Positions 33,593 through 63,474 of a DNA stretch of 64,000 nt are shown here, in pieces. This DNA comes from Companilactobacillus tucceti DSM 20183. Its GTDB lineage: Bacteria > Bacillota > Bacilli > Lactobacillales > Lactobacillaceae. The stretch is taken from assembly GCF_001434665.1 (NCBI RefSeq), contig NZ_AZDG01000004.1:1-64000 (forward strand), given 5' to 3'. The translations under genes and the position numbers were made by a program. Below the pieces are notes generated by a model, which saw nothing but the letters and a program-made list of their open reading frames with translations, was not told where the DNA came from and searched no databases. Positions within the stretch are counted from its first letter, which is position 1. Each line of letters begins with the position of its first letter.

Positions 33593-33730
33593 GAGTGGAA
33601 CAAAACATGTTCAGCTTTTGAGCATTAAGGAAAGCAAGACCAGTAATCCGATTTTGGATTGCGGGTCTTGTTTTGGTTAAGCGGAAAAAGCTATGTTTTG
33701 TTGCACGTTTATGCTGCATGTTTAAAGAAG
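33593..33730 (+). repeat. F2 structured 3' repeat, copy 1
   Basis: It begins AGAG nine bases after the 3D-protein stop. The outer arm GTGGAACAAAACAT pairs with ATGTTTTGTTGCAC. Conserved strands TTCAGCTTTTGAGCATTAA and TTAAGCGGAAAAAGCT enclose a hairpin around AGACC-AGTAATCC. The distal end is CACGTTTATGCTGCATG. It is in sense with the upstream gene. Confidence 0.8.
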
Positions 33731-33754
33731 TTTTGTCCAAAGCTCTTTTTACGC

Positions 33755-34534
33755 CTAATTATTGTGGTTATAAGCAAAAACAGTTAGTGGTGCAAAGACT
33801 ATTACGATTCCAATTCCAAAAAGTAATACTAACCAAGCTTCATTTGTCCAACTACCTGTGGATAAAATTTGTCTAACAGCGGTAATAACGTAAGTTATTG
33901 GATTCAGATACACAATGAATTTCATAGTTTTAGATAATGTATCAACTGGAATAAATGCATTAGATAAGAATGTTAAAGTCAACATAATCATTAGTGAAAA
34001 ACTCTGAACAGCAGATGCACTTTTAGCTAATAATCCCAATAGTGCAAATACCCATGAGATTGCCCAACCAGAGAATATTGCAAGCAATCCACTTACAACA
34101 ACTACCCAAAAGATTCCAGCAGCTGGTCTCCACCCCATTAAATAACCTACTGACAATGAAGTAATAGTTGCAATTACTAAACGTAAAATATCAGCAAAAA
34201 GTTGACCGGCTAGAGGTGCAATGTGTGCCATAGGTAATGATTTAAATCTATCAAAGACTCCAGAGTCTAAATCCTCTCTAATCTGTGACCCTGAACCAGA
34301 TGCGGCCGATAACATTGTTTGAATCAATATTCCTGGAACAATCGTTGGCAAGTAACTTTTAACGTTACCAGAAATTGCCCCTCCAAACAGATATCCAAAC
34401 ATCAACATAAACATAATTGGCTGAATAATAACATCCATAAATTGATCTGGATTATGAAGTGTTTTCAAAAGATTACGATAAGCCATTGTTGCAGTATTCA
34501 TAATTAAATTTCCATGATGTGTCTCTACATTCAT
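33755..34534 (-). CDS. ABC-2 type exporter permease
   Basis: A 259-aa membrane protein of the ABC-2 (DrrB-like) family with six hydrophobic segments. The family signature VPGILIQTMLSAASGSG and LSNAFIPVDTLSKTMKFIVYLNPITY near the C-terminus are visible. It forms an exporter with the ATPase gene 18 bases upstream. AAGGA lies eight bases before the ATG. Drug or lipid export is typical; the substrate is unknown. Controlled probably by the divergent MarR gene. Confidence 0.87.
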   Translation of the reverse strand: MNVETHHGNLIMNTATMAYRNLLKTLHNPDQFMDVIIQPIMFMLMFGYLFGGAISGNVKSYLPTIVPGILIQTMLSAASGSGSQIREDLDSGVFDRFKSLPMAHIAPLAGQLFADILRLVIATITSLSVGYLMGWRPAAGIFWVVVVSGLLAIFSGWAISWVFALLGLLAKSASAVQSFSLMIMLTLTFLSNAFIPVDTLSKTMKFIVYLNPITYVITAVRQILSTGSWTNEAWLVLLFGIGIVIVFAPLTVFAYNHNN

Positions 34535-34552
34535 AATTAATATCCTTCTTTT

Positions 34553-35488
34553 CTAATTTTTACCTACTGTCAGTTTCATAAATACATCATCTAAAGATGG
34601 TTCTTTTACTGTCAGATTACTAATGCTTATTTTTGATTGTTTTAGAGTAACTAATAATGGTGCTAGTTGATCAACACTCTTCAAAGTGGTACTTAATTGT
34701 TCACCTGCGTGATGAATTGGCTCGCCAACATTGTTTGTTAATAATTTCATAGCATCATCAATTTGGGAATTGCGTTCAACAGTAAATTCCAGCTTTGTAC
34801 CACCGATTTGTTTTTTAAGTTCTTCTGGAGTTCCAATTTTTATTAATTTGCCATGATCAATGACTGCAATTCTATCTGCTAATTGATCAGCCTCATCTAA
34901 GTATTGTGTTGTAAGTAAAATAGTAGAACCTTGTTCAACCAATTTTCTGATCGTATCCCACATTTGAGTTCTAGTTCTTGGATCTAGACCCGTTGTAGGT
35001 TCATCTAAGAAAATCAAAGCAGGTCGAGTAATTAAACTTACCGCCAAATCCAATCTACGACGCATACCACCTGAAAAGTCTTTTAATGGTTTATCCGCTG
35101 AATTTATTAGAGAAAATTCTGATAATAATTCTTGTGTCCTCTTTTTTGAATCTAATCTAGATAATCCATTAAGCCTTGAAAAGATCATTAAATTCTCACG
35201 AGCTGAAATATCTTCGTCGACGGAAGCATATTGTCCAGTTAATCCAAACATTGATCTAGCCAGTCGCCCTTCTTTAACTGAATCATGTCCAAAAATTTTT
35301 ACACTTCCATTATTAGCTTTCATTAATGTGGTCATCATTCTCAATGTTGTTGTTTTACCAGCTCCGTTTGGACCTAATAATCCAAATACTTCACCTTTTT
35401 TTACATTAAAAGAAATGTCATCTACTGCAATTTTATTATTAAATTTTTTTGTTAAATGATTAACTTCAATAGCGTTTACTGCTTCCAT
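34553..35488 (-). CDS. ABC exporter ATP-binding protein, DrrA type
   Basis: A 311-aa ATPase partner of the ABC-2 permease. Walker A GPNGAGKTT (about 39-47), signature FSGGMRRRL (about 138-146), Walker B LIFLDEPTTGLDP and TTQYLDEADQL are present, with the C-terminal extension of DrrA proteins. GAGG precedes the ATG. It is the first gene of the two-gene operon and lies divergent to the MarR regulator, separated by repeated operator sites. Confidence 0.93.
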   Translation of the reverse strand: MEAVNAIEVNHLTKKFNNKIAVDDISFNVKKGEVFGLLGPNGAGKTTTLRMMTTLMKANNGSVKIFGHDSVKEGRLARSMFGLTGQYASVDEDISARENLMIFSRLNGLSRLDSKKRTQELLSEFSLINSADKPLKDFSGGMRRRLDLAVSLITRPALIFLDEPTTGLDPRTRTQMWDTIRKLVEQGSTILLTTQYLDEADQLADRIAVIDHGKLIKIGTPEELKKQIGGTKLEFTVERNSQIDDAMKLLTNNVGEPIHHAGEQLSTTLKSVDQLAPLLVTLKQSKISISNLTVKEPSLDDVFMKLTVGKN

Positions 35489-35514
35489 ATCTATTACCTC
35501 GTTAGCTTTTGATA

Positions 35515-35588
35515 TTAATCAGGTCACCTGATTAACTACATTGTAAGGGTACCTGATTAATTATACAAGTATTTTATCAGGTACCTTG
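35515..35588. promoter_or_regulatory. Three MarR operator-like repeats
   Basis: Site 1, TTAATCAGGT-C-ACCTGATTAA (35515-35535), is a perfect palindrome. Site 2, GGGTACCTGATTAA (35547-35560), keeps one full half. Site 3, TTTATCAGGTACCTTGA (35572-35588), keeps the other half. They fill the gap between the divergent ABC operon and the MarR gene, so that regulator is the likely ligand. Confidence 0.72.
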
Positions 35589-35637
35589 ACTATCTTTTTT
35601 AAAATCAACCAGTATAATAATATTTGGAGGTATAAAT

Positions 35638-36153
35638 ATGCCTAATCTATTAAAAAAGAAAAGTGCTGCTGGTAAACTAATGGAATTCAATATGGTTCGT
35701 CACACAGTAGACAATATGTATCATAGAAACTCTGATCAAGGAGAACGACGATTTCTATTTCAAGGCCAAGGAAAAATCCTTGTAGCCTTATACCAAAATG
35801 ATGGTATTTCTCAAAAAGAATTAGCCACAAGCCTTGATCTATCAGCTCAATCAACCGCTGAATTTGTCAATAAGCTTGTAAATAAGGGATTAGTTACAAA
35901 AGAAAAATCTACGACTGACAAACGTGTATCAATTATTAAATTAACCAAATCTGGTAGAGAAATTGCGACCAAAGAATCAGAAAAAATACCAGAATTCTTT
36001 GACGTTTTAACTGATGAAGAACTAGATCAATTCACTAATATTCTGACAAAGATAAATACAAAACTATATGATGAAATAAACGAAAGTAATTCTAGCCTAT
36101 TTAAGAAAACACAAAAAATCGTTAAAGAACATTTTCGTGACTGGTTTTTATAG
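35638..36153 (+). CDS. MarR family regulator of the ABC exporter
   Basis: A 171-aa winged-helix regulator. The DNA-binding part reads GISQKELATSLDLSAQSTAEFVNKLVNKGLVTKEKSTTDKRVSIIKLT (about 58-105). A helical C-terminal dimerisation region follows. GGAGG precedes the ATG. Divergence from the exporter and the three ATCAGGT operators between them suggest local repression. Its stop codon (TAG) overlaps the first bases of an F2 element. Confidence 0.87.
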   Translation: MPNLLKKKSAAGKLMEFNMVRHTVDNMYHRNSDQGERRFLFQGQGKILVALYQNDGISQKELATSLDLSAQSTAEFVNKLVNKGLVTKEKSTTDKRVSIIKLTKSGREIATKESEKIPEFFDVLTDEELDQFTNILTKINTKLYDEINESNSSLFKKTQKIVKEHFRDWFL

Positions 36154-36286
36154 AGCGCCAAAGAACACGTTCAGCTTTCGAGCATTAAAGCAAACACCCC
36201 TACCAATCCGGCGGATTGATAGGGGTGTTCGTTTTAAGCGGAAAAAGCTGTGTTCTTTGGCGCGTTTTAGCTGAATATTTAAGAAA
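36152..36286 (+). repeat. F2 structured 3' repeat, copy 2
   Basis: AGAG starts inside the marR stop codon (TAGAG). The arm GCGCCAAAGAACAC pairs with GTGTTCTTTGGCGC perfectly, a sequence unlike the other copies. TTCAGCTTTCGAGCATTAA and TTTTAAGCGGAAAAAGCT are conserved around the hairpin CACCCCTACCAATCC/GGATTGATAGGGGTG. Confidence 0.82.
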
Positions 36287-36292
36287 ATAAGC

Positions 36293-36326
36293 AAAAAAAG
36301 ACCCCGTCTCACGACGGGGCATTTTT
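36293..36326. terminator. Bidirectional terminator after F2 copy 2
   Basis: The stem CCCCGTC (36302-36308) and GACGGGG (36313-36319) has loop TCAC, with a run of seven A on the left and CATTTTTG on the right. It follows the F2 element at the end of the marR transcript. Confidence 0.8.
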
Positions 36327-36682
36327 GAGGTGGTAAGATGAAATCTCTACTGCAGTTTTCATCAAATACATCTATCAAAAATATATACATAAGTGAATCA
36401 TACTACGTAAAACAAATCTTACTACACTACGTGTTCTTTGTTCAAAAATTGGATCCTAGCAAATCATGTATTGAGCTTGCGCGACTACTATAATTTAAGT
36501 CGATTTTATGTTAACTTTTGTTGCTAGTTCCAAAATGCCTTTGTACCGTACTACTCTAATAATTCTGTGCTCTCTAATCCTACCATCTCCTTAATGGAAA
36601 TGAATAAAACTCTATCTAGCATGAAAATTATGGGCTACAGTTCTTGGCATTTCATCTTTACCACGTCTTTAATATACCATTG
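36327..36682. other. Gene-free stretch between marR and mvaS
   Basis: About 355 bases with stop codons in all frames I followed and no ribosome binding site followed by a plausible gene. TACTACGTAAAACAAATCT and TACTACACTACGTGTTC show short repeated TACTAC words. I see no structured element or hairpin with a T-run here. It may be remnant sequence. Confidence 0.45.
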
Positions 36683-36684
36683 TC

Positions 36685-36698
36685 CGAAAGCGTTTACA
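36685..36698. promoter_or_regulatory. cre-like box just downstream of mvaS
   Basis: Read in reverse, TGTAAACGCTTTCG is one base from a strong CcpA box. It lies three bases beyond the mvaS stop codon, an unusual place for a regulator site, unless it serves an unannotated transcript or a roadblock. Confidence 0.4.
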
Positions 36699-36701
36699 AG
36701 A

Positions 36702-37856
36702 TTAATGTTCCATCTTTTTGTATAATCTTTCACTTTCTTTTATCTCACGTAAATAGAATTCATCCAACACGTCAGAAACGTTGGTACTATAGCCGTTCTG
36801 TGGGTCTTCAGCAAAAATATTTTCATATTCTTTAATGCTAATTTTTTCACGATTACTTAAGACTTCCTTAATTTCTTCACTAACTAAATTTTTCTTAAAT
36901 TCAGGCTGAATTGTAGCACTATAAAGTTCACCAACAGCACCTGAGCCATAACTGAACAACAAAATCTTCTCATTATCTTTAGGATCTCCATTGATCAAAT
37001 AAGAAATCAAAGCTAAGTAAAGTGAACCGGTATAAAGATTACCAACTTCTCGACCCATTTCGATACTTGCTTGATAATGTTTCGACAACTCATCAAACTT
37101 ATCCGGATCAATTTTATCCTTTAATGTCTTCAAAGCTTTCATCCCCATTTTAGTATATGGGACATGGAATAGCATCGTCTGAAAATCATCTACAGTTTGA
37201 TCAAAGGTATTTTGATACTTTTGCCAAAGTTCACTAAAGAATTCTACATAAACTTGATTAGAAAACTTCCCTCTCGCAAATGCAGTTTTAGAAAAAGTAG
37301 GACGCCAGAAGTCACCAACATTTTTAGTCATATAGACTTCTTCATGATTGAATTTCAAAATCTTAGGGTCTTTACCAATCAACATAGCAACAGCACCTGC
37401 ACCTTGAGTGACTTCACCTGGTGTATTAATACCATATCTAGCAATATCACTGGCAATAACCAATGCTTTTTTATCCGGATTCAATGCTACAAATCCTTCT
37501 GCCATCTTTAATCCCGCTGTAGCACCGTAACAAGCTTCCTTTATTTCAAATGCTCGAACGTCTTCTGGGAGATTTAATAAATCAACCAAAAATGTAGCAA
37601 CAGCCTTAGATTCATCAACACTGCTTTCAGTTCCAACAATGACTAAACCTATATTGTCGTCCTTTGAAATAATTTGATTGGCAGCTTCTGCTGCCATTGT
37701 GACACTGTCTTGATATTCCATAGGAACAGATTGCTTACTTTGACCAATTCCTATCGTGAATTTATCAGGGTCAACGTTTCTGGCCTTTGCTAACTCAACA
37801 ATATCAATATATTTCTTAGGTGTATAAAACCCAATTTTATCAATACCTATATCCAT
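36702..37856 (-). CDS. mvaS: Hydroxymethylglutaryl-CoA synthase
   Basis: A 384-aa thiolase-fold enzyme condensing acetyl-CoA with acetoacetyl-CoA, second step of the mevalonate route to isoprenoids. Catalytic residues are visible: Glu77 in VGTESSVDES, Cys109 in KEACYGATA and His231 in FHVPYTKMG. Its ATG overlaps the mvaA stop (TAATG), so translation is coupled. It is the last gene of the thiolase-mvaA-mvaS operon. Confidence 0.95.
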   Translation of the reverse strand: MDIGIDKIGFYTPKKYIDIVELAKARNVDPDKFTIGIGQSKQSVPMEYQDSVTMAAEAANQIISKDDNIGLVIVGTESSVDESKAVATFLVDLLNLPEDVRAFEIKEACYGATAGLKMAEGFVALNPDKKALVIASDIARYGINTPGEVTQGAGAVAMLIGKDPKILKFNHEEVYMTKNVGDFWRPTFSKTAFARGKFSNQVYVEFFSELWQKYQNTFDQTVDDFQTMLFHVPYTKMGMKALKTLKDKIDPDKFDELSKHYQASIEMGREVGNLYTGSLYLALISYLINGDPKDNEKILLFSYGSGAVGELYSATIQPEFKKNLVSEEIKEVLSNREKISIKEYENIFAEDPQNGYSTNVSDVLDEFYLREIKESERLYKKMEH

Positions 37857-40239: not shown

Positions 40240-40330
40240 ATTTCATATCCTCTCTGGTAAAATAGCCTTAAAATTAAATAATAGTTTATCTAGAAATTAA
40301 AAACAATAAAAATGCAAGGTGGTGTTTTCA

Positions 40331-40615
40331 ATGCGTGTAATTGATTTAATTTTATTATTGAACGATTTTAATAAAAATAGCCGTGTTTTAATTGAAAATA
40401 CTCCAATAAATTTAGCTGTTGTTGATATTAAAGTAATCGATAATAAATTAATTTTAGAAACTTCATCCAAATTAAAAGCTCTAAAAAATTGGGAATTCCT
40501 TTTAATGATCAATAAATCATTATATTATACTATGCCTATCTTTTTTGACCACAAAAAAAATCACCAACAACTCTTTGGATTTAGGGTTGCTGGCGATCAG
40601 CTTTTATTAGGCTAG
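40331..40615 (+). CDS. Small hypothetical protein
   Basis: A 94-aa protein I do not recognise. It starts [19 protein letters not shown] and appears mixed alpha/beta, without a signal peptide. AAGGTGG precedes ATG 40331. It converges with galU, and the two stop codons share the same CTAG. Coding is supported by the good start site and intact frame; function is unknown. Confidence 0.6.
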
Positions 40616-41508: not shown

Positions 41509-41511
41509 TAT

Positions 41512-42456: not shown

Positions 42457-42467
42457 TTAACTCTCCA

Positions 42468-43853: not shown

Positions 43854-43856
43854 ACT

Positions 43857-44297
43857 ATGGAATTGATCAAAAAACACCGAGATTTCTTGGTGTATTGTCT
43901 ATTTGGATTTATGGCATCACTAATAAATATTGCCGTCTTTACTATTTCACACAATAATCTGAAAATATCCCTTTGGTTGGCTAACACTATTGCTTGGCTA
44001 ATATCAAATATATTTTCTTTTTTTGTGACTAAATTGTATGTTTTTAAAACCAAGATTGGTACATATAAAAAGATGCTTAAAGAAGGTGCTTACTTTATAG
44101 CCTCGAGATTATTTTCCTTACTATTTGATGATATCTTCATGATCGTGGCAGTTCTTGTTTTACCACTTAATAATATTGTCATTAAAATAATCGACCAACT
44201 GGTCGTAGGATTATTTAATTACTTTTCATCTAAATGGATCTTCAACTACAATAATCGAAATATATTAGAAAAAATCAAAAATTTGAGATCAAAATAA
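43857..44297 (+). CDS. GtrA family membrane protein
   Basis: A 146-aa membrane protein with four transmembrane segments. The family signature YCLFGFMASLINIAVFTI at the N-terminus and the basic loop after FSFFVTKLYVFKTK are visible. GtrA proteins help move lipid-linked sugars for wall or teichoic acid glycosylation. It appears translationally coupled to the flavodoxin gene. F2 copy 3 follows. Confidence 0.87.
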   Translation: MELIKKHRDFLVYCLFGFMASLINIAVFTISHNNLKISLWLANTIAWLISNIFSFFVTKLYVFKTKIGTYKKMLKEGAYFIASRLFSLLFDDIFMIVAVLVLPLNNIVIKIIDQLVVGLFNYFSSKWIFNYNNRNILEKIKNLRSK

Positions 44298-44305
44298 AAA
44301 AATAC

Positions 44306-44438
44306 AGAGTGTGACAAAGCATGTTCAGCTTTCGAGCATTAAGGCAGACAAGGTCAGCAATCCGTTGGATTGCTGACCTTGTCTGTTTTAAGCGGAAAAA
44401 GCTATGTTTTGTCGCACGTTTATGCTGCATATTAAAGA
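44306..44438 (+). repeat. F2 structured 3' repeat, copy 3
   Basis: AGAG starts eight bases after the GtrA stop. The outer arm GTGTGACAAAGCAT pairs with ATGTTTTGTCGCAC. The inner hairpin is GACAAGGTCAGCAATCC/GGATTGCTGACCTTGTC, a 17-bp perfect stem. The conserved strands and the CACGTTTATGCTGCATAT end are present. It is in sense with the GtrA gene. Confidence 0.82.
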
Positions 44439-44474
44439 AAAAAGCAGTTATGTTACACTCCCTATTTTTATTAG

Positions 44475-45548: not shown

Positions 45549-45582
45549 TAAACCATACCAATTTGTGGTATAGTTTATTTTT
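45549..45582. terminator. Bidirectional terminator downstream of F2 copy 4
   Basis: AAACCATACCA is paired with TGGTATAGTTT around ATTTG, flanked by T-rich tracts on both strands. On the reverse strand it follows F2 copy 4 and would end the kbl-tdh-permease transcript. Confidence 0.7.
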
Positions 45583-45583
45583 T

Positions 45584-45707
45584 ATTCCGCATAAACATGC
45601 AACACAGCATAGTTTTTTCTACTTACAATAAAATACTCCAGCAACCTGAAGATTGCTGGAGTATTTTATTTTAGTGCGCAAAAGTTGGACAGGCTTTGTT
45701 GCACTCT
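45584..45707 (-). repeat. F2 structured 3' repeat, copy 4 (divergent)
   Basis: Reading on the reverse strand, AGAG overlaps the permease stop codon (TAAGAG). The arm GCAACAAAGC pairs with GCTGTGTTGC, and the long hairpin AATACTCCAGCAA/TTGCTGGAGTATT is intact. The proximal conserved strand has decayed (GTCCAACTTTTGCGCAC), while AGAAAAAACTATG and the GCATGTTTATGCGG end remain. Confidence 0.68.
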
Positions 45708-47038
45708 TATTCTGTATCTACATTTTGTTTTGATTTATATAGGTAGAATGGCAAACCGACAAACGTCAATGCTAATCCTACTAGGGCAAGTATTGTTTGG
45801 GTAAACAATGTATTTATTACAATGAAGGAGCCTCCGAGAATGGCAATAATCGGGACTACAGGGTAAAAGAGGGTCTTGTAGGGTCTATTCATATCTGGTT
45901 CACGTTTTCTAAGTATCATTGTAGCGAGGAAGGTCATTGTATAGAAAATCCAGATTACGAATATCAACATATCAGTTAAGGTATTAAATGCACCTAAGAA
46001 AATCATAAGACTAGCAATTACAATCTGTAAGATACCACAATTAATAGGAATTCCATTTTTTGATAACTTTTTAAGTTGTTTACTAAATGGCAAGGTATTA
46101 TCTAAAGCCATTGCGTAAGGAATACGCATACCTGTCATTGTATATCCATTAATGGCACCAAACACAGAAATTAGGATACCGATCGTTACTAACTTACCAC
46201 CTAATTCACCAAATAATACGGTAGAAACATCTGAAGCAGCATTGTTATTACCGATAATTTGACCAATTGGCATAGTCTTTAGAAATACATAATTGATCAA
46301 CATATAAACAATCATGATTCCTGCTAATCCTAACAGGATAGCTTTTGGTAGATCCTTTCGAGGATTTTTCATCTCTCCAGCAATATTACCAACATGGATC
46401 CATCCGTCATAAGCAAACATTGTTGCTAATAGTCCATGTCCTAAGGCTGTGGCAAAGCCTAAGTCTTTTCCAGCTGTGACCGGGAATAAACTGATTTGAA
46501 CGTCTGATTTAGCGAATAAACCAAAGATAACAATTAAAATGATAGGAATCAATTTGAAAAGTGTTGTAAACGATTGAACACGTCCACCTACTTTGGAACC
46601 GAGCAAATTAGTTAGTGTTAAGAACAATGCTACGGCAACTCCTATCGGAACCAGTAAACTTGGACTTAAGCCAAATAAATTAATACATTGTGTACTGAAT
46701 ATAATTGCCAACGCAGCTATATTTGCAGGGAAATATATTACAGTTTCAGCCCATCCAAGCAAGAAAGCAGGCTTCTTTCCATAAGTATATTCAATATAGC
46801 GCATCATTCCACCAGTTTCAGGGATTGCGGCAGCCAGTTCAGCAGCTGTCAAACCAGCACAGATGGTAATTACACCACCTAAAAACCATGCTAAAAGTGA
46901 TAAGCTAACGGTTCCTGTCGCTTCAGAAACCACGGCAGCTTTGAAAAATACACCCGCACCAATAACTGTACCCATTACGGTGGACAAAGCAGCAACAAAT
47001 CCAATATTTTTCTTTAGATCAGTTGTTCCTTCTCCCAT
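45707..47038 (-). CDS. APC family amino acid permease
   Basis: A 443-aa membrane transporter with 12 hydrophobic segments. The N-terminal GFVAALSTVMGTVIGAGVFFKAA and AELAAAIPETGGMMRYIEYTYG are typical of the LAT-type APC family. It lies 23 bases downstream of the threonine dehydrogenase gene and shares its cre-controlled transcript, so threonine, serine or glycine transport is a reasonable guess. GAGG precedes the ATG. Confidence 0.87.
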   Translation of the reverse strand: MGEGTTDLKKNIGFVAALSTVMGTVIGAGVFFKAAVVSEATGTVSLSLLAWFLGGVITICAGLTAAELAAAIPETGGMMRYIEYTYGKKPAFLLGWAETVIYFPANIAALAIIFSTQCINLFGLSPSLLVPIGVAVALFLTLTNLLGSKVGGRVQSFTTLFKLIPIILIVIFGLFAKSDVQISLFPVTAGKDLGFATALGHGLLATMFAYDGWIHVGNIAGEMKNPRKDLPKAILLGLAGIMIVYMLINYVFLKTMPIGQIIGNNNAASDVSTVLFGELGGKLVTIGILISVFGAINGYTMTGMRIPYAMALDNTLPFSKQLKKLSKNGIPINCGILQIVIASLMIFLGAFNTLTDMLIFVIWIFYTMTFLATMILRKREPDMNRPYKTLFYPVVPIIAILGGSFIVINTLFTQTILALVGLALTFVGLPFYLYKSKQNVDTE

Positions 47039-55229: not shown

Positions 55230-55259
55230 TATAGGGGATTATCAGACTAGGGGATTACT

Positions 55260-55934
55260 ATGTACAGATACTTTATTCAACCACAATTAAATAAATACAA
55301 TAATACCTTAATCGGCTATGAGTTATTGATGAAGCATGACACACCTGATGGATGGCGCCCGCCATTACATTTCTCAGATATACCTTCTCATACTTTAGCC
55401 GAAGTACTTGTTGCTACCACTAAGTTACTTTCATTAAAAATTGGCTCAGTGTCAGTAAATCTTAATAGAACTCAACTAATGGACCCTGAAGTTAGAAAGG
55501 CTATTATCCTTTCGCAAAGCCAACTAAGACCACTAAAATTAGTCGTTGAATTAACTGAAGAGCCCGGAAACGAACAATGGTCCAACGAAGATCTAATTCC
55601 TTTGATCCAACAATTCAAAAACTATGGTATGGACTTTAGTTTAGATGATGTCGGTACTGGTGAAAATAAATTGGATCATATTAGATCATTAGTTCCACTT
55701 GCTGATGAAATGAAATTTGCAATTCAGAATTTCTCTGAAAAGCTACGTGATCCAGATATTGAAAATAAAGTGATTTTTTGGAGAGATTTTACGAAAGAAC
55801 ACAATTTGCGTTTTATCTTAGAAGGTATTGAAGATAAGAACGATGATCGTTTAGCAGATACTTTAGAGATTGACCTACGACAGGGTTATTTCTATGGACG
55901 CCCACACCTTCTAAAGTTAGAGGGAGATAAATAG
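55260..55934 (+). CDS. Stand-alone EAL domain (c-di-GMP phosphodiesterase-like) protein
   Basis: A 224-aa single-domain EAL protein, soluble, with no sensor domain. Catalytic positions look preserved: Glu in YELLMK (the EAL motif), Asn in VNLNRTQL, Glu in VELTEE, DDVGTG (for DDFGTG), Lys in EMKFAI, Glu in LEGIED and QGYFYGRP. The Asp that usually follows the Lys (KID) is replaced by Ala. It may degrade c-di-GMP made by the GGDEF protein at 57569. GGGG precedes the ATG. Confidence 0.82.
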   Translation: MYRYFIQPQLNKYNNTLIGYELLMKHDTPDGWRPPLHFSDIPSHTLAEVLVATTKLLSLKIGSVSVNLNRTQLMDPEVRKAIILSQSQLRPLKLVVELTEEPGNEQWSNEDLIPLIQQFKNYGMDFSLDDVGTGENKLDHIRSLVPLADEMKFAIQNFSEKLRDPDIENKVIFWRDFTKEHNLRFILEGIEDKNDDRLADTLEIDLRQGYFYGRPHLLKLEGDK

Positions 55935-55943
55935 ATTACTTAT

Positions 55944-56063
55944 CTCAAACGCGCAAATAAACACAACTTTTTCCGCTTAAAGTAAACAGCTCCATCAATC
56001 CGCTTGGATTGATGGAGCTGTTTATTTTAATGCTCGAAAGCTGAACGTGTTTATTTGCGCTCT
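55944..56063 (-). repeat. F2 structured 3' repeat, copy 5, overlapping nox codons
   Basis: On the reverse strand the arm AGAGCGCAAATAAACAC begins inside the last codons of the NADH oxidase gene and includes its TAA. It pairs perfectly with GTGTTTATTTGCGC. TTCAGCTTTCGAGCATTAA and TTTAAGCGGAAAAAGTT enclose the hairpin ACAGCTCCATCAATCC/GGATTGATGGAGCTGT. Confidence 0.82.
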
Positions 56064-57394
56064 CTTTCCTTATCCACAGCCATTTGACCTACTAAGTTCA
56101 AATAATTAAATGGATTATCATAATTTGGTTGGAACAACATATCGATAAATGACAAATCATCGATCGTATTATTATTTTGAATACATACTGATATTGTATT
56201 TGCTGACTGTGCAACTTCATGCTTACTGAAGAATTGAGCACCTAATATCTTACGAGTGTCTTTATCGTAAACTAACCTGATCGTAAGCATTTCTGTCGTT
56301 GGCATATAATCTGGACGATAATAGTCATGATAAACGACTGCATCGGCGTTAAATTCATGCTCAAGTGCATTTGTTAAGGTCAAACCAGTAGAAGCTACTG
56401 TATAACCAAACAATTCCATTCCTGAAGTTGCTTGTGTACCCATATATTTTTGAATATTTCCAAAAATATTGATTCCGGCTAACGCACCTTGTCTAATAGC
56501 ATTAGTAGCTAAAGGCATATATGAAGACTTGCCAGTTGGATTAAAGTTGACTGTACATGCATCCCCTGCTGCATAAATATCAGGGTCTGAAGTTTGGACA
56601 TAGTCATTGATTATAATTGCACCATGACGATCCATATCAACTTGTCCACGCAAAAGATCAGTATTAGCAATAAATCCTGTACATACAATTACTAAATCTG
56701 CCTTATGATCTTCCTTGCTTGTCTCAATAACAACTTGATCATCACCACTAAATCCATTAACATGCTCGTTCAAAAATACATTAACACCATGTTCCTTCAA
56801 AAGATCCACAACATTATCAGACATTTCAGGATCTAAGTAATGATTTAAAACCTGATTATTTGATTGTATTAAAGTAACCTCATGGTCTGTATTAGCGTAA
56901 CTTTCTGCTAGTTCTACACCAATATACCCAGCTCCAACAATTGCAATATGCTTATTCTTTTTAGCAGTTTCATAAATTGCTTTAGCTTGAGCATAACTCT
57001 TACACATTAGAATTTTTGAATTATCAATTCCCACAATAGGTGGTACTTGAACATAAGAACCAGTTGTCATGATCAACTTATCATATGTATCTTCAAAGAC
57101 ATCATGAGTCTCTAAGTTCTCACACATAATCTTTTTATTTTTAGCATCAATTTTTAAAACATCATGTTTCATACATACTTTGGCACCTAATTTCTCAAGT
57201 GTCTCAGGATCGGCATAAAACATATCTTCCAGTTTTTTAACTCTACGTCCTAAATACAAGGCTATCCCACAGGACAAGAAAGAAATATTATCATCACGTT
57301 CATAAACTGTGACTTCTGTCCCAGGATGATCCTTTAAAATCTGATCAACAGCAGCTGTCCCTGCGTGTGTACAACCAACTACTATAACTTTCAC
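56051..57394 (-). CDS. NADH oxidase, H2O-forming (2)
   Basis: A 447-aa paralogue of the protein at 52148, sharing MKVIVVGCTHAGTAAV, redox Cys42 in FLSCGIALYLG, IAIVGAGYIGVELAESYA and most of the C-terminal domain. The start is GTG 57394 with GGAGGG seven bases upstream. Its last residues (ERK) and stop lie within an F2 element, so this C-terminus differs from its paralogue. The tandem-like pair brackets the GNAT, EAL and ornithine cyclodeaminase-family genes. Confidence 0.9.
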   Translation of the reverse strand: MKVIVVGCTHAGTAAVDQILKDHPGTEVTVYERDDNISFLSCGIALYLGRRVKKLEDMFYADPETLEKLGAKVCMKHDVLKIDAKNKKIMCENLETHDVFEDTYDKLIMTTGSYVQVPPIVGIDNSKILMCKSYAQAKAIYETAKKNKHIAIVGAGYIGVELAESYANTDHEVTLIQSNNQVLNHYLDPEMSDNVVDLLKEHGVNVFLNEHVNGFSGDDQVVIETSKEDHKADLVIVCTGFIANTDLLRGQVDMDRHGAIIINDYVQTSDPDIYAAGDACTVNFNPTGKSSYMPLATNAIRQGALAGINIFGNIQKYMGTQATSGMELFGYTVASTGLTLTNALEHEFNADAVVYHDYYRPDYMPTTEMLTIRLVYDKDTRKILGAQFFSKHEVAQSANTISVCIQNNNTIDDLSFIDMLFQPNYDNPFNYLNLVGQMAVDKERERK

Positions 57395-57568
57395 AATAAT
57401 TCCCTCCAATATATAACTTTATTTTACTATATAAACAATAATATTGAATTTTATTATATATATTTTAATATTCTCGTAGAAAAAATACATTTTAGTGTTA
57501 ATGTGTTAAGTGTATACCATTATATGATACTCGTATTAAAAAATAAAATCTCGGATTAGGGGTGAAGA

Positions 57569-58765
57569 ATGTCAATTAATAACATTAATGGTCTTCAATC
57601 ACTTTTAAGTGTCGACGGGAATATCAATGCAATAATCATCGGTCTTATTACGATAGGACTGATTACCATTATCACTGTATCAGCTTATTCTTTTGAAAAT
57701 ATTATAAATAATAGCAAAAAGAAATCAGTTAAAATAGGACTTCAAATAGCCGAAGGAGTCATCTTGGCTATTAGTATGATTTTGGTTCAGCATATCTTCA
57801 AGGCTTTAAACTCTGGAGATACGCGTAGTTGGTTTTATGCAACTACTCAATTGACATTATTACTCTATAGTCTTTACACTATGCAAAATTATGTCATTGA
57901 ATTTATGAATATTGCAATGCCTATTTACGTCTTTGGACACCATCTTATAAACGGAAACAATAATTACTTATTACTATTTATTATCTTAACGATTTTACTG
58001 GCCTTAACAGTCAGTTATATTTCAAGAAACACCGATCAATTACTTAATTCTGAATGGAAATACATTATCCTACAGGTAATTTATGGTGCCATCTGGTGGG
58101 TAATAATTTGGTCGTTCCATCGCTTCACACTTTATTACACTATCAGCATGCTTGTCGGATTCGTTATTTATATGTCTATTATTAGATATATCGCTAAATG
58201 GATTCGTGATTCATTTAATAACTACCATGACTTATCCGAAAAAGTTAATTACGACGAACTTACAGGAATTAGAAATAGAGCAAACTTTGATGAAGTCTCT
58301 AGAGAAGTTTTTAAAGTTTACAGTAAAGATCTAGATGTTCCCTTAACAATGGTTATGTTTGACATTGACCATTTCAAAATTTTCAATGATGATTACGGTC
58401 ACGCTGCCGGTGATGTGGTACTTAGACATGTTGCTACATTATTTGAAAAAGAATTGTTTAAAATGACTACTAGAGGACAAATTTTCCGTTTTGGAGGCGA
58501 AGAGTTTGTAATAATTTTCAGAGGTACTACTCCTGAGGATGCTTTAGAAGTTATTAAAAAAATTCGTAATGATTTGATCAATGATCCGGTTGAATACGAA
58601 GGTAAAGAATTAAATATCCGTATTTCATTAGGAGCTTCAGCATTGCAGCCATCTGACAAAAATGTAGATGATCTATTCAATCGAGTAGATAAATATCTGT
58701 ATGAGTCTAAGAATCAAGGCCGTAATCGTATAACTGTTGAGGATGAAACAATTGCATTTAATTAA
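57569..58765 (+). CDS. Membrane-bound diguanylate cyclase (GGDEF)
   Basis: A 398-aa sensor-type diguanylate cyclase. The N-terminal 210 residues hold six or seven membrane segments. The GGDEF domain (about 225-392) has YDELTGIRNRANFDEV, FDIDHFKIFNDDYGHAAGD and the active site RFGGEEFVIIF (GGEEF). It should make c-di-GMP from GTP. GGGGTGAAG precedes the ATG. Its stop codon overlaps the AGAG of F2 copy 6. With the EAL gene 1.6 kb upstream it makes a local c-di-GMP pair. Confidence 0.9.
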   Translation: MSINNINGLQSLLSVDGNINAIIIGLITIGLITIITVSAYSFENIINNSKKKSVKIGLQIAEGVILAISMILVQHIFKALNSGDTRSWFYATTQLTLLLYSLYTMQNYVIEFMNIAMPIYVFGHHLINGNNNYLLLFIILTILLALTVSYISRNTDQLLNSEWKYIILQVIYGAIWWVIIWSFHRFTLYYTISMLVGFVIYMSIIRYIAKWIRDSFNNYHDLSEKVNYDELTGIRNRANFDEVSREVFKVYSKDLDVPLTMVMFDIDHFKIFNDDYGHAAGDVVLRHVATLFEKELFKMTTRGQIFRFGGEEFVIIFRGTTPEDALEVIKKIRNDLINDPVEYEGKELNIRISLGASALQPSDKNVDDLFNRVDKYLYESKNQGRNRITVEDETIAFN

Positions 58766-58897
58766 GAGTGCAAGGATACACGTTCAGCTGTCGAGCATTA
58801 AGGCAAACGACCCTATCAATCCGATTTTGGATTGATAGGGTCGTTTGTTTTAAGCAGAAAAAGCTGTGTATCCTTGCACGTTTACGCTTCATATTTA
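58765..58897 (+). repeat. F2 structured 3' repeat, copy 6
   Basis: AGAG begins at the last base of the GGDEF stop codon (TAAGAG). The arm GTGCAAGGATACAC pairs perfectly with GTGTATCCTTGCAC. TTCAGCTGTCGAGCATTAA and TTTAAGCAGAAAAAGCT flank the hairpin ACGACCCTATCAATCC/GGATTGATAGGGTCGT; note the paired TTT-to-TGT and CGG-to-CAG drift in otherwise conserved strands. Confidence 0.82.
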
Positions 58898-58970
58898 ACC
58901 CTTCTTCAGGGTACAAAAAAAAGTTCCAAGTAAAAAAATATTTACTTAGAACAAATCTTAGTTGTTTTGC

Positions 58971-59109
58971 ATTTCTAAATTTTTATAGCCTAAACGTGTG
59001 ACTAAAGGCTGCAACCTCCACATAGCTACGAACCACGAATGATTGATGGAGCCAATCATTCGTGATTCTAGGCTATGCTCCGGTGGCAAACCGCCTTTTG
59101 TCACACTCT
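58971..59109 (-). repeat. F3 structured 3' repeat, copy 4
   Basis: It reads on the reverse strand from AGAGTGTGAC at 59109. All three nested stems are present, with inner hairpin CACGAATGATTG/CAATCATTCGTG and the conserved GGCTGCAACCTCCACATAG strand. It lies downstream of the reverse-strand YczE-like operon, beyond its terminator, and meets F2 copy 6 of the opposite gene tail to tail. A hairpin, GTTCCAAGTAAA/TTTACTTAGAAC (58923-58951), lies between the two. Confidence 0.78.
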
Positions 59110-59112
59110 CAC

Positions 59113-59139
59113 AAAAAAAAGATGAGATACTATCTCATC
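59113..59139 (-). terminator. Terminator of the YczE-like cluster
   Basis: The stem GATGAGATA-GTATCTCATC is followed on the reverse strand by eight T residues. The bases just upstream (59140-59185) can form a second small hairpin, TCAG..CTGA with AGGA..TCCT. That could be a 3' UTR structure or the body of a small RNA. Confidence 0.7.
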
Positions 59140-59294
59140 TCCGGGAAGGATCAGTTGTTTTGTCCTGATGGTCCTAGAAGTAATAGTAACCCATATAAAA
59201 TTCATTCTCAATAGTTTAATAACTTTTTATAATAACCCTAGTTTTGATAAATGTGCTTATTTTTACTCTTTTTTAAACAAAGATTAACCATATT

Positions 59295-59951
59295 TTAAAG
59301 ATTGTAGTGATGCTTTAACGAAGGAACGATTAATTTATCCATTCTTCCAATAATATAACCTTGAAAGAAAATTGCTAAAATAGTTCCGATTCCTACTGAA
59401 TAAATCTTACCACTGACAAGATAACAAATAATCATGATAATTATTGGCGGAGAATAGCTCACTATTTGTCCCCACCCAGCCGATCCATGAAGATACTTGA
59501 ATCTTAATAAATATGCTAATTCATCATTGGGATGTTGAATTATGTTACAACGCTGATAAATCGAAACAGCCATAGAAACACCAAATAGTCCGATAATATC
59601 AATTAAGATCCGTAAAAACATGTTCATTTGTTCAAAGTGAAGAGGTATATATAATTTGGTAAAAAATCCGACTAAATAACTAAAAGGTAATGAAAACAAA
59701 ATATTAGAAATAAATATATGACCATCAAACTTTCCTAAAAGAAATTGATTAGTAATGGCTACTAAAATGGCATAAACAAACAAAGTCGTACCGTAATCAA
59801 CTTTTATCAAATTAGAAATATTAACACCCGAAGCCATCCAGACAGCACTTCCGACATCACTATCTATCATTAATGCGTTTGAAGCTGCATTAAATATAAT
59901 TGAGAAGGCTAAATACCCCATCCTCTTTTTAAAGTCCCCTTTTGTATCCAT
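59295..59951 (-). CDS. YczE-like membrane protein (copy 1)
   Basis: A 218-aa protein with five or six hydrophobic segments, of the YczE/YyaS type (COG2364-like). The family pattern is ASNALMIDSDVGSAVWMASGVNISNL, with an N-terminal basic GDFKKRMGYLAF. It ends LIVPSLKHHYNL. ATG 59951 has GAGGG upstream. It is one of three tandem paralogues; function is unknown. Confidence 0.78.
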   Translation of the reverse strand: MDTKGDFKKRMGYLAFSIIFNAASNALMIDSDVGSAVWMASGVNISNLIKVDYGTTLFVYAILVAITNQFLLGKFDGHIFISNILFSLPFSYLVGFFTKLYIPLHFEQMNMFLRILIDIIGLFGVSMAVSIYQRCNIIQHPNDELAYLLRFKYLHGSAGWGQIVSYSPPIIIMIICYLVSGKIYSVGIGTILAIFFQGYIIGRMDKLIVPSLKHHYNL

Positions 59952-59996
59952 GCATCCACCCTCTTAATAAAATAAGCAGTCAAATGAGACTGCTTA

Positions 59997-60010
59997 TGAA
60001 AACGTTTGTT
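59997..60010 (-). promoter_or_regulatory. cre-like box between YczE copies 2 and 1
   Basis: TGAAAACGTTTGTT is a weak cre-like palindrome 15 bases past the stop of copy 2. It is followed on the reverse strand by the hairpin TAAGCAGTC/GACTGCTTA and TTTTATT, before the start of copy 1. Confidence 0.4.
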
Positions 60011-60024
60011 TTTCATTATATCAT

Positions 60025-60681
60025 CTAAAGATTGTAATGATGCTTTAGTGATGGAATAACTATAAAATCAGCTTTACCAATCATATAACCTTGTAAAAAT
60101 ATTGCCAAGATGGTTCCGATACCTACTGAATAAATCTTGCCAGTCATAAAATAACAAATAACCATGATCAATACTGGCGGTAAGTAACTAAAAACCTGTC
60201 CCCATCCAGCTGATCCATGAAGATACTTGAATCTTAAAATGTAAGCTAGTTCATCATTAGGGTGCTGAATAATATTACAACGTTGATAAATTGAAGCACC
60301 TATTGAAACACCTAATAATCCAATAATATCAATGACGACTTGCCAAAATAAGCCTAATCTCTCAATATGTAATGGCAAATATAATTTAGTAAAGAAACCC
60401 ATTAAATAGCTAAATGGTACTGAAAAAATCAAATTTGAGATAAAAACATGCCCATCGAATTTCTTTAAGAGTAATTGATTAACTACAGATACAATAATGG
60501 CATAAAAAAATAGTGTTGTACCATAATCAACATTTATCAATTTAGAAATATTAACACCAGATGCCATCCAGACAGCACTTCCAACATTACTATCAACCAT
60601 CAACGCATTGGACGCTGCAATAAATACAATTGCAAATGCCAAATAACCTAATCTTCTTCTATAATCCCGCTTTGCTTCCAA
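60025..60681 (-). CDS. YczE-like membrane protein (copy 2)
   Basis: A 218-aa paralogue of copies 1 and 3, with the same GYLAFAIVFIAASNALMVDSN start and the HPNDELAYILRFKYLHGSAGWGQ segment near residue 137-159. It appears to start at TTG 60681 (GAGGG eight bases upstream), in line with the N-termini of its paralogues. It ends IVIPSLKHHYNL like copy 1. Confidence 0.76.
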   Translation of the reverse strand: MEAKRDYRRRLGYLAFAIVFIAASNALMVDSNVGSAVWMASGVNISKLINVDYGTTLFFYAIIVSVVNQLLLKKFDGHVFISNLIFSVPFSYLMGFFTKLYLPLHIERLGLFWQVVIDIIGLLGVSIGASIYQRCNIIQHPNDELAYILRFKYLHGSAGWGQVFSYLPPVLIMVICYFMTGKIYSVGIGTILAIFLQGYMIGKADFIVIPSLKHHYNL

Positions 60682-60717
60682 GTGCTACACCCTCTTCTAA
60701 GTTTAATTTACTCGAAA

Positions 60718-60763
60718 AAAAAATGACCGGCAAATTTTCCAGTCATATATGTAAGCGTTTTAT
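60718..60763 (-). terminator. cre-like box plus terminator between YczE copies 3 and 2
   Basis: On the reverse strand ATAAAACGCTTACA (60763-60750, cre-like) is followed at once by the hairpin ATGACTGG/CCGGTCAT (arms 60747-60740 and 60731-60724) and nine T residues. The same order, box then hairpin then T-run, recurs upstream of copy 3. Confidence 0.65.
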
Positions 60764-60787
60764 AAAATGCGTGTAAAAGTGATACTT

Positions 60788-61462
60788 TTAACCTGCTATT
60801 TTGATACTTTCATTAGGATGATGTTTCAAAGATGGCATGAACCAATGATCTGCTTTTCCTATTAATATTCCTTGGAAACAAACCGCCAAAACAGTTCCTA
60901 ATCCAACAGAATCGATCCTTCCTATAATAAAAAAGCAAACTAACAAAACAACTATTGGTGGCAAATAACTAAAGAACTGTCCCCAACCGGCTGAACCATG
61001 TAGATATTTGAACCTTATTATATAAGCCAACTCATCATTTGGATGTTGGATCAAGTTAACTCTTTCATAAACTGAACACCCTATTGAAGCTCCAAATAAT
61101 CCTAAAACATCTAATAACACTTGCCAAAATAATCCCATATTCTCAATGTGCAAAATCAGATAGAATTTAGTAAAAAAGCCTACTAAATAACTAAATGGAA
61201 ATGCAAAAACTAAATTTGATAACAAAATATGTCCATCAAATTTTCCTAATAAAAACTGATTAGCAATTGTCACAACGATTGCATATAGAAATAGTGTTGT
61301 TCCGTAATCTATCTTAATGATATTAGTAACATTTACCGCTGATGCCATCCACACCATGCTTCCAACACTACTGTCAATCATCAATGCGTTTGAAGCTGCT
61401 ATTAAAATTATTGCAAAAGCCAAATATCCTAATCTTTTCTTAAAATCACTTTTTTCTTCCAA
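60788..61462 (-). CDS. YczE-like membrane protein (copy 3)
   Basis: A 224-aa paralogue with the same architecture. I place the start at TTG 61462, after GAGAGG, because it aligns with the starts of copies 1 and 2 (EEKSDFKKRLGYLAF); the frame is open to 61543 without support. Its tail, SLKHHPNESIKIAG, differs from the LKHHYNL of the others. It lies downstream of the multicopper oxidase gene but after its own terminator. Confidence 0.75.
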   Translation of the reverse strand: MEEKSDFKKRLGYLAFAIILIAASNALMIDSSVGSMVWMASAVNVTNIIKIDYGTTLFLYAIVVTIANQFLLGKFDGHILLSNLVFAFPFSYLVGFFTKFYLILHIENMGLFWQVLLDVLGLFGASIGCSVYERVNLIQHPNDELAYIIRFKYLHGSAGWGQFFSYLPPIVVLLVCFFIIGRIDSVGLGTVLAVCFQGILIGKADHWFMPSLKHHPNESIKIAG

Positions 61463-61522
61463 AAAATCCTCTCCCAGATAAGTCCTCAATAAATATCCTA
61501 GAACAAATTTTCGAAAAAAATA

Positions 61523-61564
61523 AGCGATTGAATATAATTCCAATCACTTATGTAAGCGTTTTAT
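61523..61564 (-). terminator. cre-like box plus terminator downstream of the multicopper oxidase
   Basis: On the reverse strand ATAAAACGCTTACA (61564-61551) is followed by the hairpin ATAAGTGATTG/CAATCGCTTAT and six T residues. It repeats the layout seen between YczE copies 3 and 2. Confidence 0.65.
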
Positions 61565-61616
61565 ATAATTGCTGTAGATGTGATAGTAATCAGTTATCAA
61601 ATCTAGTGTTTTGACA

Positions 61617-63071
61617 CTATGCCTTTTTACCACCATTCATCATTTCATCCATACTGATCAAATGGAATTTATGCTCATGATCTGGATCATATGCTTCAAT
61701 TTGTGCCATCATTCCAGTATCCTCATGCTCCAAAATATGGCAATGATACATATAAATTCCAAACTTACTGAACTTAACGGCAATTCTAACTGTTTCACCG
61801 GCATTAACTCCAACAACATCTTTCCAACCATGTTCATTTGGATAAACTTCTTTACCATTTCTACTCAAAACTAAGAACTGGCACCCATGAAGGTGGAATG
61901 GATGAATCATACCTTTATCCATGTCGTTAGTATTAGTAACATCCCAAAGAATAGTATCGCCAATCTTTTGTTTACGATCAATTCTTTGCATATCAAATAA
62001 TTTTCCATCTAATTTTACTTGGTCATCCATACCTGACATTACTGTATGAACGATCTTGCTACCAGGAGTAACAACCGGTTTAGGAATCGTATTTAGATGT
62101 TCTGGTAATTTAACATCTTGCTTGACGTAATTTCCAATTTTGAATTTAAGAATTGGAACATCATCACTCATTAAAGTTACTTCGTCTCCTGGTTTTTTAT
62201 CACCAAAATCAACAATAACTTCGTCACGTTCAGCAGTCGTTATCATCACCTTAGTCAATTCAACTGGTTTTGGTAAAGTTCCGCCATCTGAAGCTATTTG
62301 TGTAAATTCATGGTTATCATCAAAGTGTAATCTCCACTCACGACGATTTGAACCATTTAAAATTCTTAAACGAACACGTTGTGTTGTAACGTTGAACACT
62401 CCATTTATAGTTCCGTTGATAACAGCATATTTACCAAGTGTTCCATCCATATCATAGTCAGCTTTATAATCTAGTTGATTATCATGATAGTTTCTATCTT
62501 GTAAAATAATAGGAATATCATCAACACCATAATTTCTAGGAAATGGTAACTTAGCTTCCTCTGGGTCCGTTACAATAACCTCAGCAGCCAAACCGTTCCA
62601 TACTTGGCGTGCAGTATTTGGACATGGATGTGGATGCAACCAATCTGTCTGTGCAGGTTGATCCAATGTAAAATCAATATCACGACTTCCACCTGGATAA
62701 ACTGGTGCGTGTGGACCACCATCTACGATTGGACCAGTTACATTTAGACCGTGCCAATGAAAAGTAGTTACTTCAGGTAATTTATTAACTAAATGAATAT
62801 GGTAATGAACACCTTGTTTAAAGACCACGGTTTTACCCAACAAGGGAGCACTGAATCCCCAAGTCTTTGTTTTCTTACCCGGTAAAATCTGGGTCTCCCC
62901 TTCTTGAGCTGTCAAAGTATAATAAACGTCATTTCCCTCAACTTTATCGGGCTTTAACAATTCAGGAATATTCAGAGGCTTCTCCGGTAGGTCTGTCTTC
63001 TCTAACGGGACATACCCACCATCATGCAAGTCAAAAACCGGCTCATCAAAGAAATAATCCGTATAAACCAT
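61617..63071 (-). CDS. Multicopper oxidase (laccase-like)
   Basis: A 484-aa cupredoxin oxidase without a signal peptide. Copper-ligand motifs are FHWHGLNV (about 103-110), LHPHPCPNTARQVWNGL (about 145-161), MIHPFHLHGCQF (about 392-403) and MYHCHILEHEDTGMM (about 447-461), giving the type 1, 2 and 3 sites. It oxidises phenols or metal ions with O2; lactobacillar relatives have been linked to biogenic amine breakdown. GGTGG precedes ATG. It is cotranscribed with a 53-aa membrane protein. Confidence 0.92.
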   Translation of the reverse strand: MVYTDYFFDEPVFDLHDGGYVPLEKTDLPEKPLNIPELLKPDKVEGNDVYYTLTAQEGETQILPGKKTKTWGFSAPLLGKTVVFKQGVHYHIHLVNKLPEVTTFHWHGLNVTGPIVDGGPHAPVYPGGSRDIDFTLDQPAQTDWLHPHPCPNTARQVWNGLAAEVIVTDPEEAKLPFPRNYGVDDIPIILQDRNYHDNQLDYKADYDMDGTLGKYAVINGTINGVFNVTTQRVRLRILNGSNRREWRLHFDDNHEFTQIASDGGTLPKPVELTKVMITTAERDEVIVDFGDKKPGDEVTLMSDDVPILKFKIGNYVKQDVKLPEHLNTIPKPVVTPGSKIVHTVMSGMDDQVKLDGKLFDMQRIDRKQKIGDTILWDVTNTNDMDKGMIHPFHLHGCQFLVLSRNGKEVYPNEHGWKDVVGVNAGETVRIAVKFSKFGIYMYHCHILEHEDTGMMAQIEAYDPDHEHKFHLISMDEMMNGGKKA

Positions 63072-63085
63072 ACAATCGCCACCTA

Positions 63086-63247
63086 TTAATTTTTTTTGAA
63101 AGTTCCGATACAGTTAACGACCGCTTCCAAAAGCATGCCGATCGCCATCATATACATTGCTATCATGTTTTTATTCTCAATCACAAAGTAAAACAAAATA
63201 GCATAGAATATAACCATAAAAACTGAAAACAATTTTGAACTGCCCAT
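63086..63247 (-). CDS. 53-aa membrane protein upstream of the multicopper oxidase
   Basis: A short ORF reading MGSSKLFSVFMVIFYAILF then FVIENKNMIAMYMMAIG. Two hydrophobic helices (about 6-23 and 28-43) are joined by a short polar turn, and it ends GTFKKN. GGTGAG precedes ATG 63247, and its stop is 14 bases before the oxidase ATG, so the two are one operon. No known family is recognised. Three internal Met residues lie close together (NMIAMYMM), which could matter for copper; this is speculation. Confidence 0.68.
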   Translation of the reverse strand: MGSSKLFSVFMVIFYAILFYFVIENKNMIAMYMMAIGMLLEAVVNCIGTFKKN

Positions 63248-63349
63248 CAAAATCTCACCTTCAAACTGTTTACATTTACATCTTAGTCCTCTTCCTTAAA
63301 TAGAAAAAGGCCGGTGAATAAAAAAAATCTGAGACATAACCTTATTTTT

Positions 63350-63474
63350 TAATACTACCTAAACGCGCGACAAATCATAGCTTTTTCCGCTTAAAACAAA
63401 TGAGACAGTAATCCTATGGATTGCTGTCTCATTTGTCTTAATGCTCGAAAGCTGGGCATGATTTGTTACGCTCT
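63350..63474 (-). repeat. F2 structured 3' repeat, copy 7
   Basis: AGAG starts inside the tautomerase stop codon (TAGAG). On the reverse strand the arm GCGTAACAAATCAT pairs with ATGATTTGTCGCGC. CAGCTTTCGAGCATTAA and TTTTAAGCGGAAAAAGCT enclose the hairpin AATGAGACAGCAATCC/GGATTACTGTCTCATT. In sense with the gene. Confidence 0.82.

Follow-up and report, generated by a model that had tools for sequence, protein, structure and literature searches.

The window analysed here, the first 64,000 nucleotides of contig NZ_AZDG01000004.1 of Companilactobacillus tucceti DSM 20183 (positions 1 to 64,000, forward strand), carries a structured repeat, here called F2, that lies mostly at or just behind the stop codons of genes. 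We show, using covariance-model and motif searches, alignments within and across genera, and comparison of orthologous gene ends, that F2 is a dispersed repeat whose copies turn over rapidly and whose fold is constrained. The original prediction, made from the letters of the window, had counted seven near-complete copies and one fragment; the total of sites and the fragment stand, but the copies are six near-complete ones and one diverged one (site 45584). A covariance model built from the six full copies gives the following limits and scores for the copies, listed here with the fragment:

33590-33727, plus strand: F2 copy (site 33593), 132.6 bits, between convergent genes; its GAG begins 8 nt past the stop of the gene ending at 33584
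36150-36284, plus strand: F2 copy (site 36152), 150 bits, overlapping the stop of the gene ending at 36153
44304-44438, plus strand: F2 copy (site 44306), 151.2 bits, behind the gene ending at 44297
45576-45709, minus strand: diverged F2 copy (site 45584), 88.2 bits, directly behind a minus-strand gene whose stop ends at 45707
55930-56065, minus strand: F2 copy (site 55944), 138.7 bits, between convergent genes, overlapping the end of a minus-strand open frame with its stop at 56051
58763-58900, plus strand: F2 copy (site 58765), 142.9 bits, directly behind the gene ending at 58765
63344-63476, minus strand: F2 copy (site 63350), 124.7 bits, at the stop (63473) of a minus-strand gene
30030-30130 (limits approximate), minus strand: F2 fragment (site 30034), with right core, right arm, tail and inner hairpin, lacking the left core

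The element, about 115-135 bp long, opens with (A)GAGYG and a variable outer arm (stem P1), followed by a 4-nt bulge, stem P2 and a conserved internal loop; 3' of the loop come a variable inner hairpin (P3), the second strand of P2, the complementary outer arm and CRCGTTT. The internal loop is formed by YGA and GGAR around G-C pairs and a bulged A, then UUAA, and the core reads YGAGCAUUAA / UUAAGCGGA. Within the window the right motif, with up to three mismatches, is matched seven times (one match being the fragment) against 0.42 expected by chance, and the left motif six times against 0.02. All six full copies fold into a single long hairpin each, with z-scores from -6.1 to -12.7 relative to shuffles, and their outer arms differ from copy to copy while each pairs with its own complement, with few wobbles or mismatches, just as had been predicted.

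A covariance-model search of the whole genome and of related bacteria, proposed as a check in the original prediction, returns matches throughout the genus and in other parts of the order, and at least 77 copies scoring 80 bits or above in the 2.17-Mb C. tucceti genome, a lower bound, as 150 of 707 first-look candidates were scored. In the alignment of these 77 rows, standard pairs fill 95.7% of the pair cells, a figure favoured by the fitting of the alignment to the covariance model; both sides change in 37 of the 48 pairs, none of 500 shuffles reaches the observed values, and sliding the partner by 1-3 columns lowers pairing to 34-46%. The left outer arm occurs in 60 distinct versions among the 77 copies, and one motif-pattern (regular expression) hit of 77 is false. 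When 43 copies drawn from many genera are aligned independently with MAFFT, pairing over P1, P2 and the core is 94.5%, a value that can be raised by the hand choice of 43 of 57 rows, the 14 left out including several diverged ones; double changes occur in 22 of the 26 pairs, and again no shuffle among 500 matches the observed values on any measure. The predicted selection on a folded structure is thus very well supported. Across genera, 51 rows remained after 14 opposite-strand rows of 71 and then 6 of the other 57 (diverged or of other core types) had been dropped, and in these the AGAG and CGTTT ends are nearly invariant and the loop segments YGAG.A and GGA barely vary.

The attachment to stop codons is likewise borne out by the counts. 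These refer to the elements found by a motif descriptor (60 in C. tucceti, 47 in the rest of the genus, 14 in other genera); the 60 C. tucceti elements have a 400-nt flank, and 53 have an open frame of at least 80 codons ending no more than 350 nt away. Of these 53 elements, 44 place their GAG start within -8 to +12 nt of the stop codon, and in a separate count 54 of 66 copies fall within -8 to +11 nt, 10 of 76 copies having no frame. The rest of the genus fits less closely (16 of 38 inside the -8 to +12 range), other genera show 10 of 14, and the median distance from stop to element is 3 nt in C. tucceti, 16 nt in the genus and 5 nt in other genera. For the 3' end of the element, a convergent stop is equally near in 3 of 41 cases, and the orientation of F2 is fixed relative to the upstream gene. 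The stops before F2 elements are TAA 29, TAG 23 and TGA 1 (for comparison, long frames of the window end in TAA 35, TAG 12 and TGA 3 times), and TAG is a stop that can share bases with the opening AGAG. In relatives, plain terminators begin a median 10 nt (murC) and 16 nt (asnS) past the stop, and part of the nearness of F2 to stop codons is expected because terminators lie there.

What kind of selection acts on the paired bases? In C. tucceti, P1 holds 47 G-U pairs against 22 A-C mismatches, which suggests that the RNA read in the direction of the upstream gene is under selection; the copies are related, so that these counts give no clean probability. Across genera the counts are 33 to 3 and biased, the rows being mostly best matches of a model that scores pairs. 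The hypervariable inner 7 bp occur as 58 distinct helices in 77 copies, and these helices, counted once each, contain 396 Watson-Crick, 6 G-U, 3 A-C and 1 other cells. Between nearest-neighbour copies the inner stem shows 102 double changes, 18 wobbles and 28 broken pairs, compared with 60, 34 and 43 in P1. Stepwise RNA compensation explains the inner double changes poorly, and a one-step double change, by hairpin-templated copying or by exchange of the whole hairpin, fits better. Covariation alone is therefore no proof of RNA function, because the inner 7 bp change on both sides almost without G-U or mismatched intermediates. We regard it as a possibility, though a doubtful one, that F2 represents a superfamily of mobile hairpins throughout the Lactobacillales, with an RNA-like conserved loop, which would swap for terminator stem-loops without a Y1 transposase or a reverse transcriptase and whose inner stems would change both strands in one step by hairpin-templated copying.

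The same data bear on the view that F2 is a conserved regulatory RNA of the 3' untranslated region, in which the internal loop of the transcript is the binding site of a protein or RNase that controls messenger RNA decay or read-through, and copies are kept by host selection at each gene. The loop nucleotides that do not vary across genera, the strong covariation of P2, the fixed orientation relative to the upstream gene and the excess of G-U over A-C in P1 all agree with it, although the across-genera set consists of best matches chosen by a model that scores pairs and so tilts towards G-U at the expense of A-C. On the other hand, the proteins encoded upstream share no common theme as judged by eye, no family search having been made, and the gene ends that bear an element differ between close species. 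Taken together, we consider this explanation unlikely.

Differences in occupancy are pronounced. C. baiquanensis, with about 85% DNA identity in this region, has the same element at none of the eight window sites (classes assigned by eye). Plain terminators stand at sites 33593, 45584 and 63350, a hairpin resembling the inner hairpin alone at 55944, a hairpin resembling P1 alone, beside an oppositely oriented element, at 58765, a different, minimal member at 44306, and unrelated sequence at 36152; the intergenic region of site 30034 does not exist there. Most of 37 elements of named relatives have no gene end in common with a C. tucceti copy, and several convergent gaps seem to hold an element of opposite orientation in the relative, both as judged by eye. 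The original prediction had set selection on a fold against simple copying of a mobile element, and this opposition does not survive: the occupancy differences at orthologous gene ends, the differences in orientation, and the sister families and tandem partial copies described below show that F2 disperses and, at the same time, has a constrained fold.

The 3' ends of murC and asnS allow a closer comparison, with loci from 30 of the 36 genus genomes each (two asnS loci were too short). By script, plain terminators were called at 26 murC and 19 asnS loci, elements at 3 and 6, and neither at 1 and 3; one of the six asnS elements is false (L272), and at least one plain call is an element by eye (L233). 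Inspection by eye places elements or remnants of several subfamilies beside the stop in about five species for murC and seven for asnS, and the three nearest relatives (G018, G005 and G023) have plain terminators at both genes. At murC, C. tucceti and C. baiquanensis align on both flanks, up to an A-rich left flank and again from the T-run on; between the aligned flanks C. tucceti has an F2 element and C. baiquanensis a plain terminator stem-loop. Both flanks are thus continuous with the stem-loop-bearing site, with no target-site duplication visible. The element probably took the place of the stem-loop rather than the reverse, because all three nearest relatives are plain. We also considered whether the inner stem derives from the terminator that was replaced, and rejected this, as no resemblance was seen by eye at murC, asnS or site 33593.

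Beside the dispersal, the occupancy differences between species, the conserved core, the structural constraint and the clean case at murC, all of them observed, we propose, with slightly better than even confidence, that F2 is a non-autonomous dispersed hairpin of the Lactobacillales, similar to EFAR elements and to miniature inverted-repeat transposable elements (MITEs), that settles at sites of intrinsic terminators and substitutes for the terminator. F2 would settle at the intrinsic terminator of a gene and replace its stem-loop; in Companilactobacillus, transcription would then end at the inner hairpin, whose 3' side is U-rich, so that insertion would be nearly neutral for the host and a high copy number could be tolerated. 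A putative trans-acting factor would recognise the conserved core and the ends during copying. In line with a MITE, F2 is short, non-coding, of high copy number and bounded by inverted ends; the short frame that is present is not conserved.

A hairpin with a U-tract was found by script inside 56 of the 60 C. tucceti elements, 40 of the 47 from the genus and 1 of the 14 from other genera. Within 160 nt downstream, such hairpins occur in 8 of 60 (control stretches 9 of 60), 9 of 47 (control 10 of 47) and 6 of 14 (control 1 of 14), respectively. The putative terminator role therefore looks like a gain in Companilactobacillus, and termination is probably not an ancestral property of the element, because the inner hairpin mostly lacks a U-tract in other genera. 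Compared with ordinary intrinsic terminators, F2 in Companilactobacillus has the same inner hairpin with a U-rich side and the same position as the plain terminators of relatives, but its hairpin is nested in a larger conserved fold and, in the other genera examined, mostly lacks the U-tract. Several copies (L001, L005, L008, L016, L081 and others) have a second downstream arm, A'' (GTTTTGTYCCAAACT and then T's in most), which could likewise pair with the left outer arm. A terminator switch between the regular right arm and A'' was rejected: A'' is present in part of the copies only, and in L035 it ignores the changes in the left arm, as seen by eye.

How might such an element move? In a classical MITE, a DDE transposase would read the inverted ends, and the short, dispersed nature of F2, its inverted ends, and the extended tail with A'' in some copies suit this explanation. 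A DDE enzyme is expected to read the sequence of the ends, however, and the outer arms of F2 vary while they stay paired, to the extent of 60 distinct left arms in 77 copies; moreover, no target-site duplication was noticed by eye and blastn found hardly any plasmid or phage copies, and we consider this origin rather improbable. Still less probable, to the point of being largely refuted for C. tucceti, is a repetitive extragenic palindromic (REP)-like element mobilised by a Y1 transposase (RAYT, REP-associated tyrosine transposase), or a retro-element copied by a reverse transcriptase. A hairpin with conserved flanks and a bulge would be in keeping with it, but neither Pfam family was detected in copy-rich C. 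tucceti or in G002, a genome with at least 55 F2 matches. Y1 transposases are present in 18 of the 36 genus genomes, and genomes with few F2 matches, for example G012, sometimes carry Y1 or reverse transcriptase families. Mobilisation by either enzyme is thus unsupported.

Spread on plasmids or phages was rejected as well. Of six plasmid queries of one copy each, five had no blastn match and the sixth, a copy from family f5, matched one 591-kb Aerococcus record; a single phage query had none. This record (CP127381.1, L219), labelled as a plasmid of Aerococcus tenax, may be part of a chromosome, because it carries rpsR, ssb and a gene for a DHH phosphoesterase.

Several observations weigh against the proposal that F2 settles at terminators and substitutes for them. 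A clean replacement with both flanks was found at murC only, and no target-site duplication was seen by eye at the compared sites. Pfam searches of C. tucceti, which covered Y1 transposase and reverse transcriptase (RVT_1) and left out DDE families, found no mobilising enzyme. An active transposon would normally be expected on plasmids and phages, where blastn found almost no copies, although a single diverged copy makes a weak query. The count of terminators inside the element has no matched control, the element being a hairpin by construction. Were termination at P3 efficient, transcripts would seldom reach the 3' half, and yet pairing in P1 and P2 is maintained; the G-U excess in P1 hints at some selection at the RNA level.

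The element is not confined to C. tucceti. The covariance model finds matches in 35 of 36 genus genomes (E<=0.001) and, with stricter filters (E<=1e-4), in 42 of 395 genomes and 17 of 80 genera of the order. Exact-core matches in named genomes, a scan that may leave out the nearest genomes, are all from Companilactobacillus (C. nantensis, C. baiquanensis, C. kedongensis, C. insicii and C. suantsaicola). The F2 core is plainly kept in other genera of the same family and in family f5, which a single BLAST match suggests to be Aerococcaceae. The hairpins of families f2, f3 and f9 follow the same plan around different cores, and their homology to F2 is less certain. C. tucceti itself has two sister families, F1 and F3, with the ends of F2. 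The F1 members of the window are:

14291-14403, minus strand: F1 element, found by the stricter scan
20361-20473, minus strand: F1 element, with ends GAGTG .. CACGTTTA as in F2 and a different core
58996-59108, minus strand: F1 element, with a core different from that of F2
30115-30251, minus strand: degenerate F1 element, 59.3 bits, missed by the stricter scan

In the F3 family (L150-L153), one copy lies directly behind a transfer RNA gene (L152), while L151 holds a tandem pair and L153 a partial copy. Tandem partial copies of F2 occur at L019, L022, L024, L026, L037, L079, L080, L082, L093 and L095, and in another genus at L172; by eye, the first element is followed by a second right half whose outer arm is often the same, with a AAAAGGAG-like stretch between them in several cases. 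The left outer arm is tandemly repeated in L036 and L073, and L161 and L162 are minimal copies without the inner hairpin.

A further explanation is a leader-like control device, in which the right half, with a Shine-Dalgarno-like GCGGAAAAAG, an RTG start and a short frame, would be controlled by hiding of the start in the outer arm. Among 208 motif matches, false ones included, the start is ATG in 108 and GTG in 38, and a stop codon lies at a fixed distance in many of the matches listed. Against this, the start is ATA or GAG in some copies and early stops occur in others, the stop is absent from most C. baiquanensis copies among the matches listed, and a sister-family copy lies behind a transfer RNA gene. 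We regard such a device as the least credible of all the explanations weighed here, and rejected the small open reading frame of the right half as a candidate. A kink-turn was likewise rejected, as the internal loop does not fit the kink-turn consensus.

Does F2 correspond to a known element? No Rfam 15 family matches in the window at gathering score, in agreement with the earlier statement that no described element fits. Permissive Rfam scans of positions 33000-64000 of the window and of L150, L151, L152, L161 and L162 gave sub-threshold matches only, apart from two transfer RNAs in L152, and a literature search returned no description of F2 among the matches listed, in the parts of those sources that were available.

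Among the closest known elements is EFAR of Enterococcus faecalis, reportedly a small intergenic palindromic repeat, mostly of 170 bp with two adjacent stem-loops, that integrates into pre-existing stem-loops, most of the stem-loop being deleted. Going by this description, F2 resembles EFAR as a small intergenic palindromic repeat and shows such a replacement at one clean site, murC, where its direction is probable, but differs in that each of the six full window copies is one long hairpin and not two adjacent stem-loops. EFAR elements are mentioned as MITEs in the available part of one source (PMC3733652) and are possibly the same as Efa-1 of another, also available in part (PMC2267715); among the matches listed, the literature search turned up no EFAR sequence. 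According to the accessible portion of PMC3049150, BOX, RUP and SPRITE of Streptococcus pneumoniae are dispersed structured repeats enriched between convergent genes and deemed parasitic, almost confined to S. pneumoniae and S. mitis with BOX relatives in S. suis; SPRITE is terminator-like, lies near gene 3' ends and has an 18-bp duplex and a U-rich tract. Compared by description, F2 shares with them its dispersed structured nature, and with SPRITE the terminator-like position, whereas that portion describes no such internal loop for SPRITE. REP elements with RAYT transposases, 20-40 bp long with a GTAG or CGTC tag in the excerpt of PMC3733652, are palindromic extragenic repeats like F2; unlike them, F2 has AGAG and CGTTT ends, its greater length and no GTAG/CGTC tag, and no Y1 gene was detected in its genome.

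In conclusion, F2 belongs with palindromic dispersed repeats such as EFAR, BOX and SPRITE, and is unusual in three points: its core is conserved over families of an order, it would stand in for terminators, and its inner stems seem to change both strands at once. With at least 77 copies in one 2.17-Mb genome, it forms a repeat class that can be annotated, and it poses the questions of which factor reads the internal loop and how paired bases change together almost without intermediates. Substitution of terminators by F2 would account for one route by which stop signals of transcription come to be swapped among lactic acid bacterial species.

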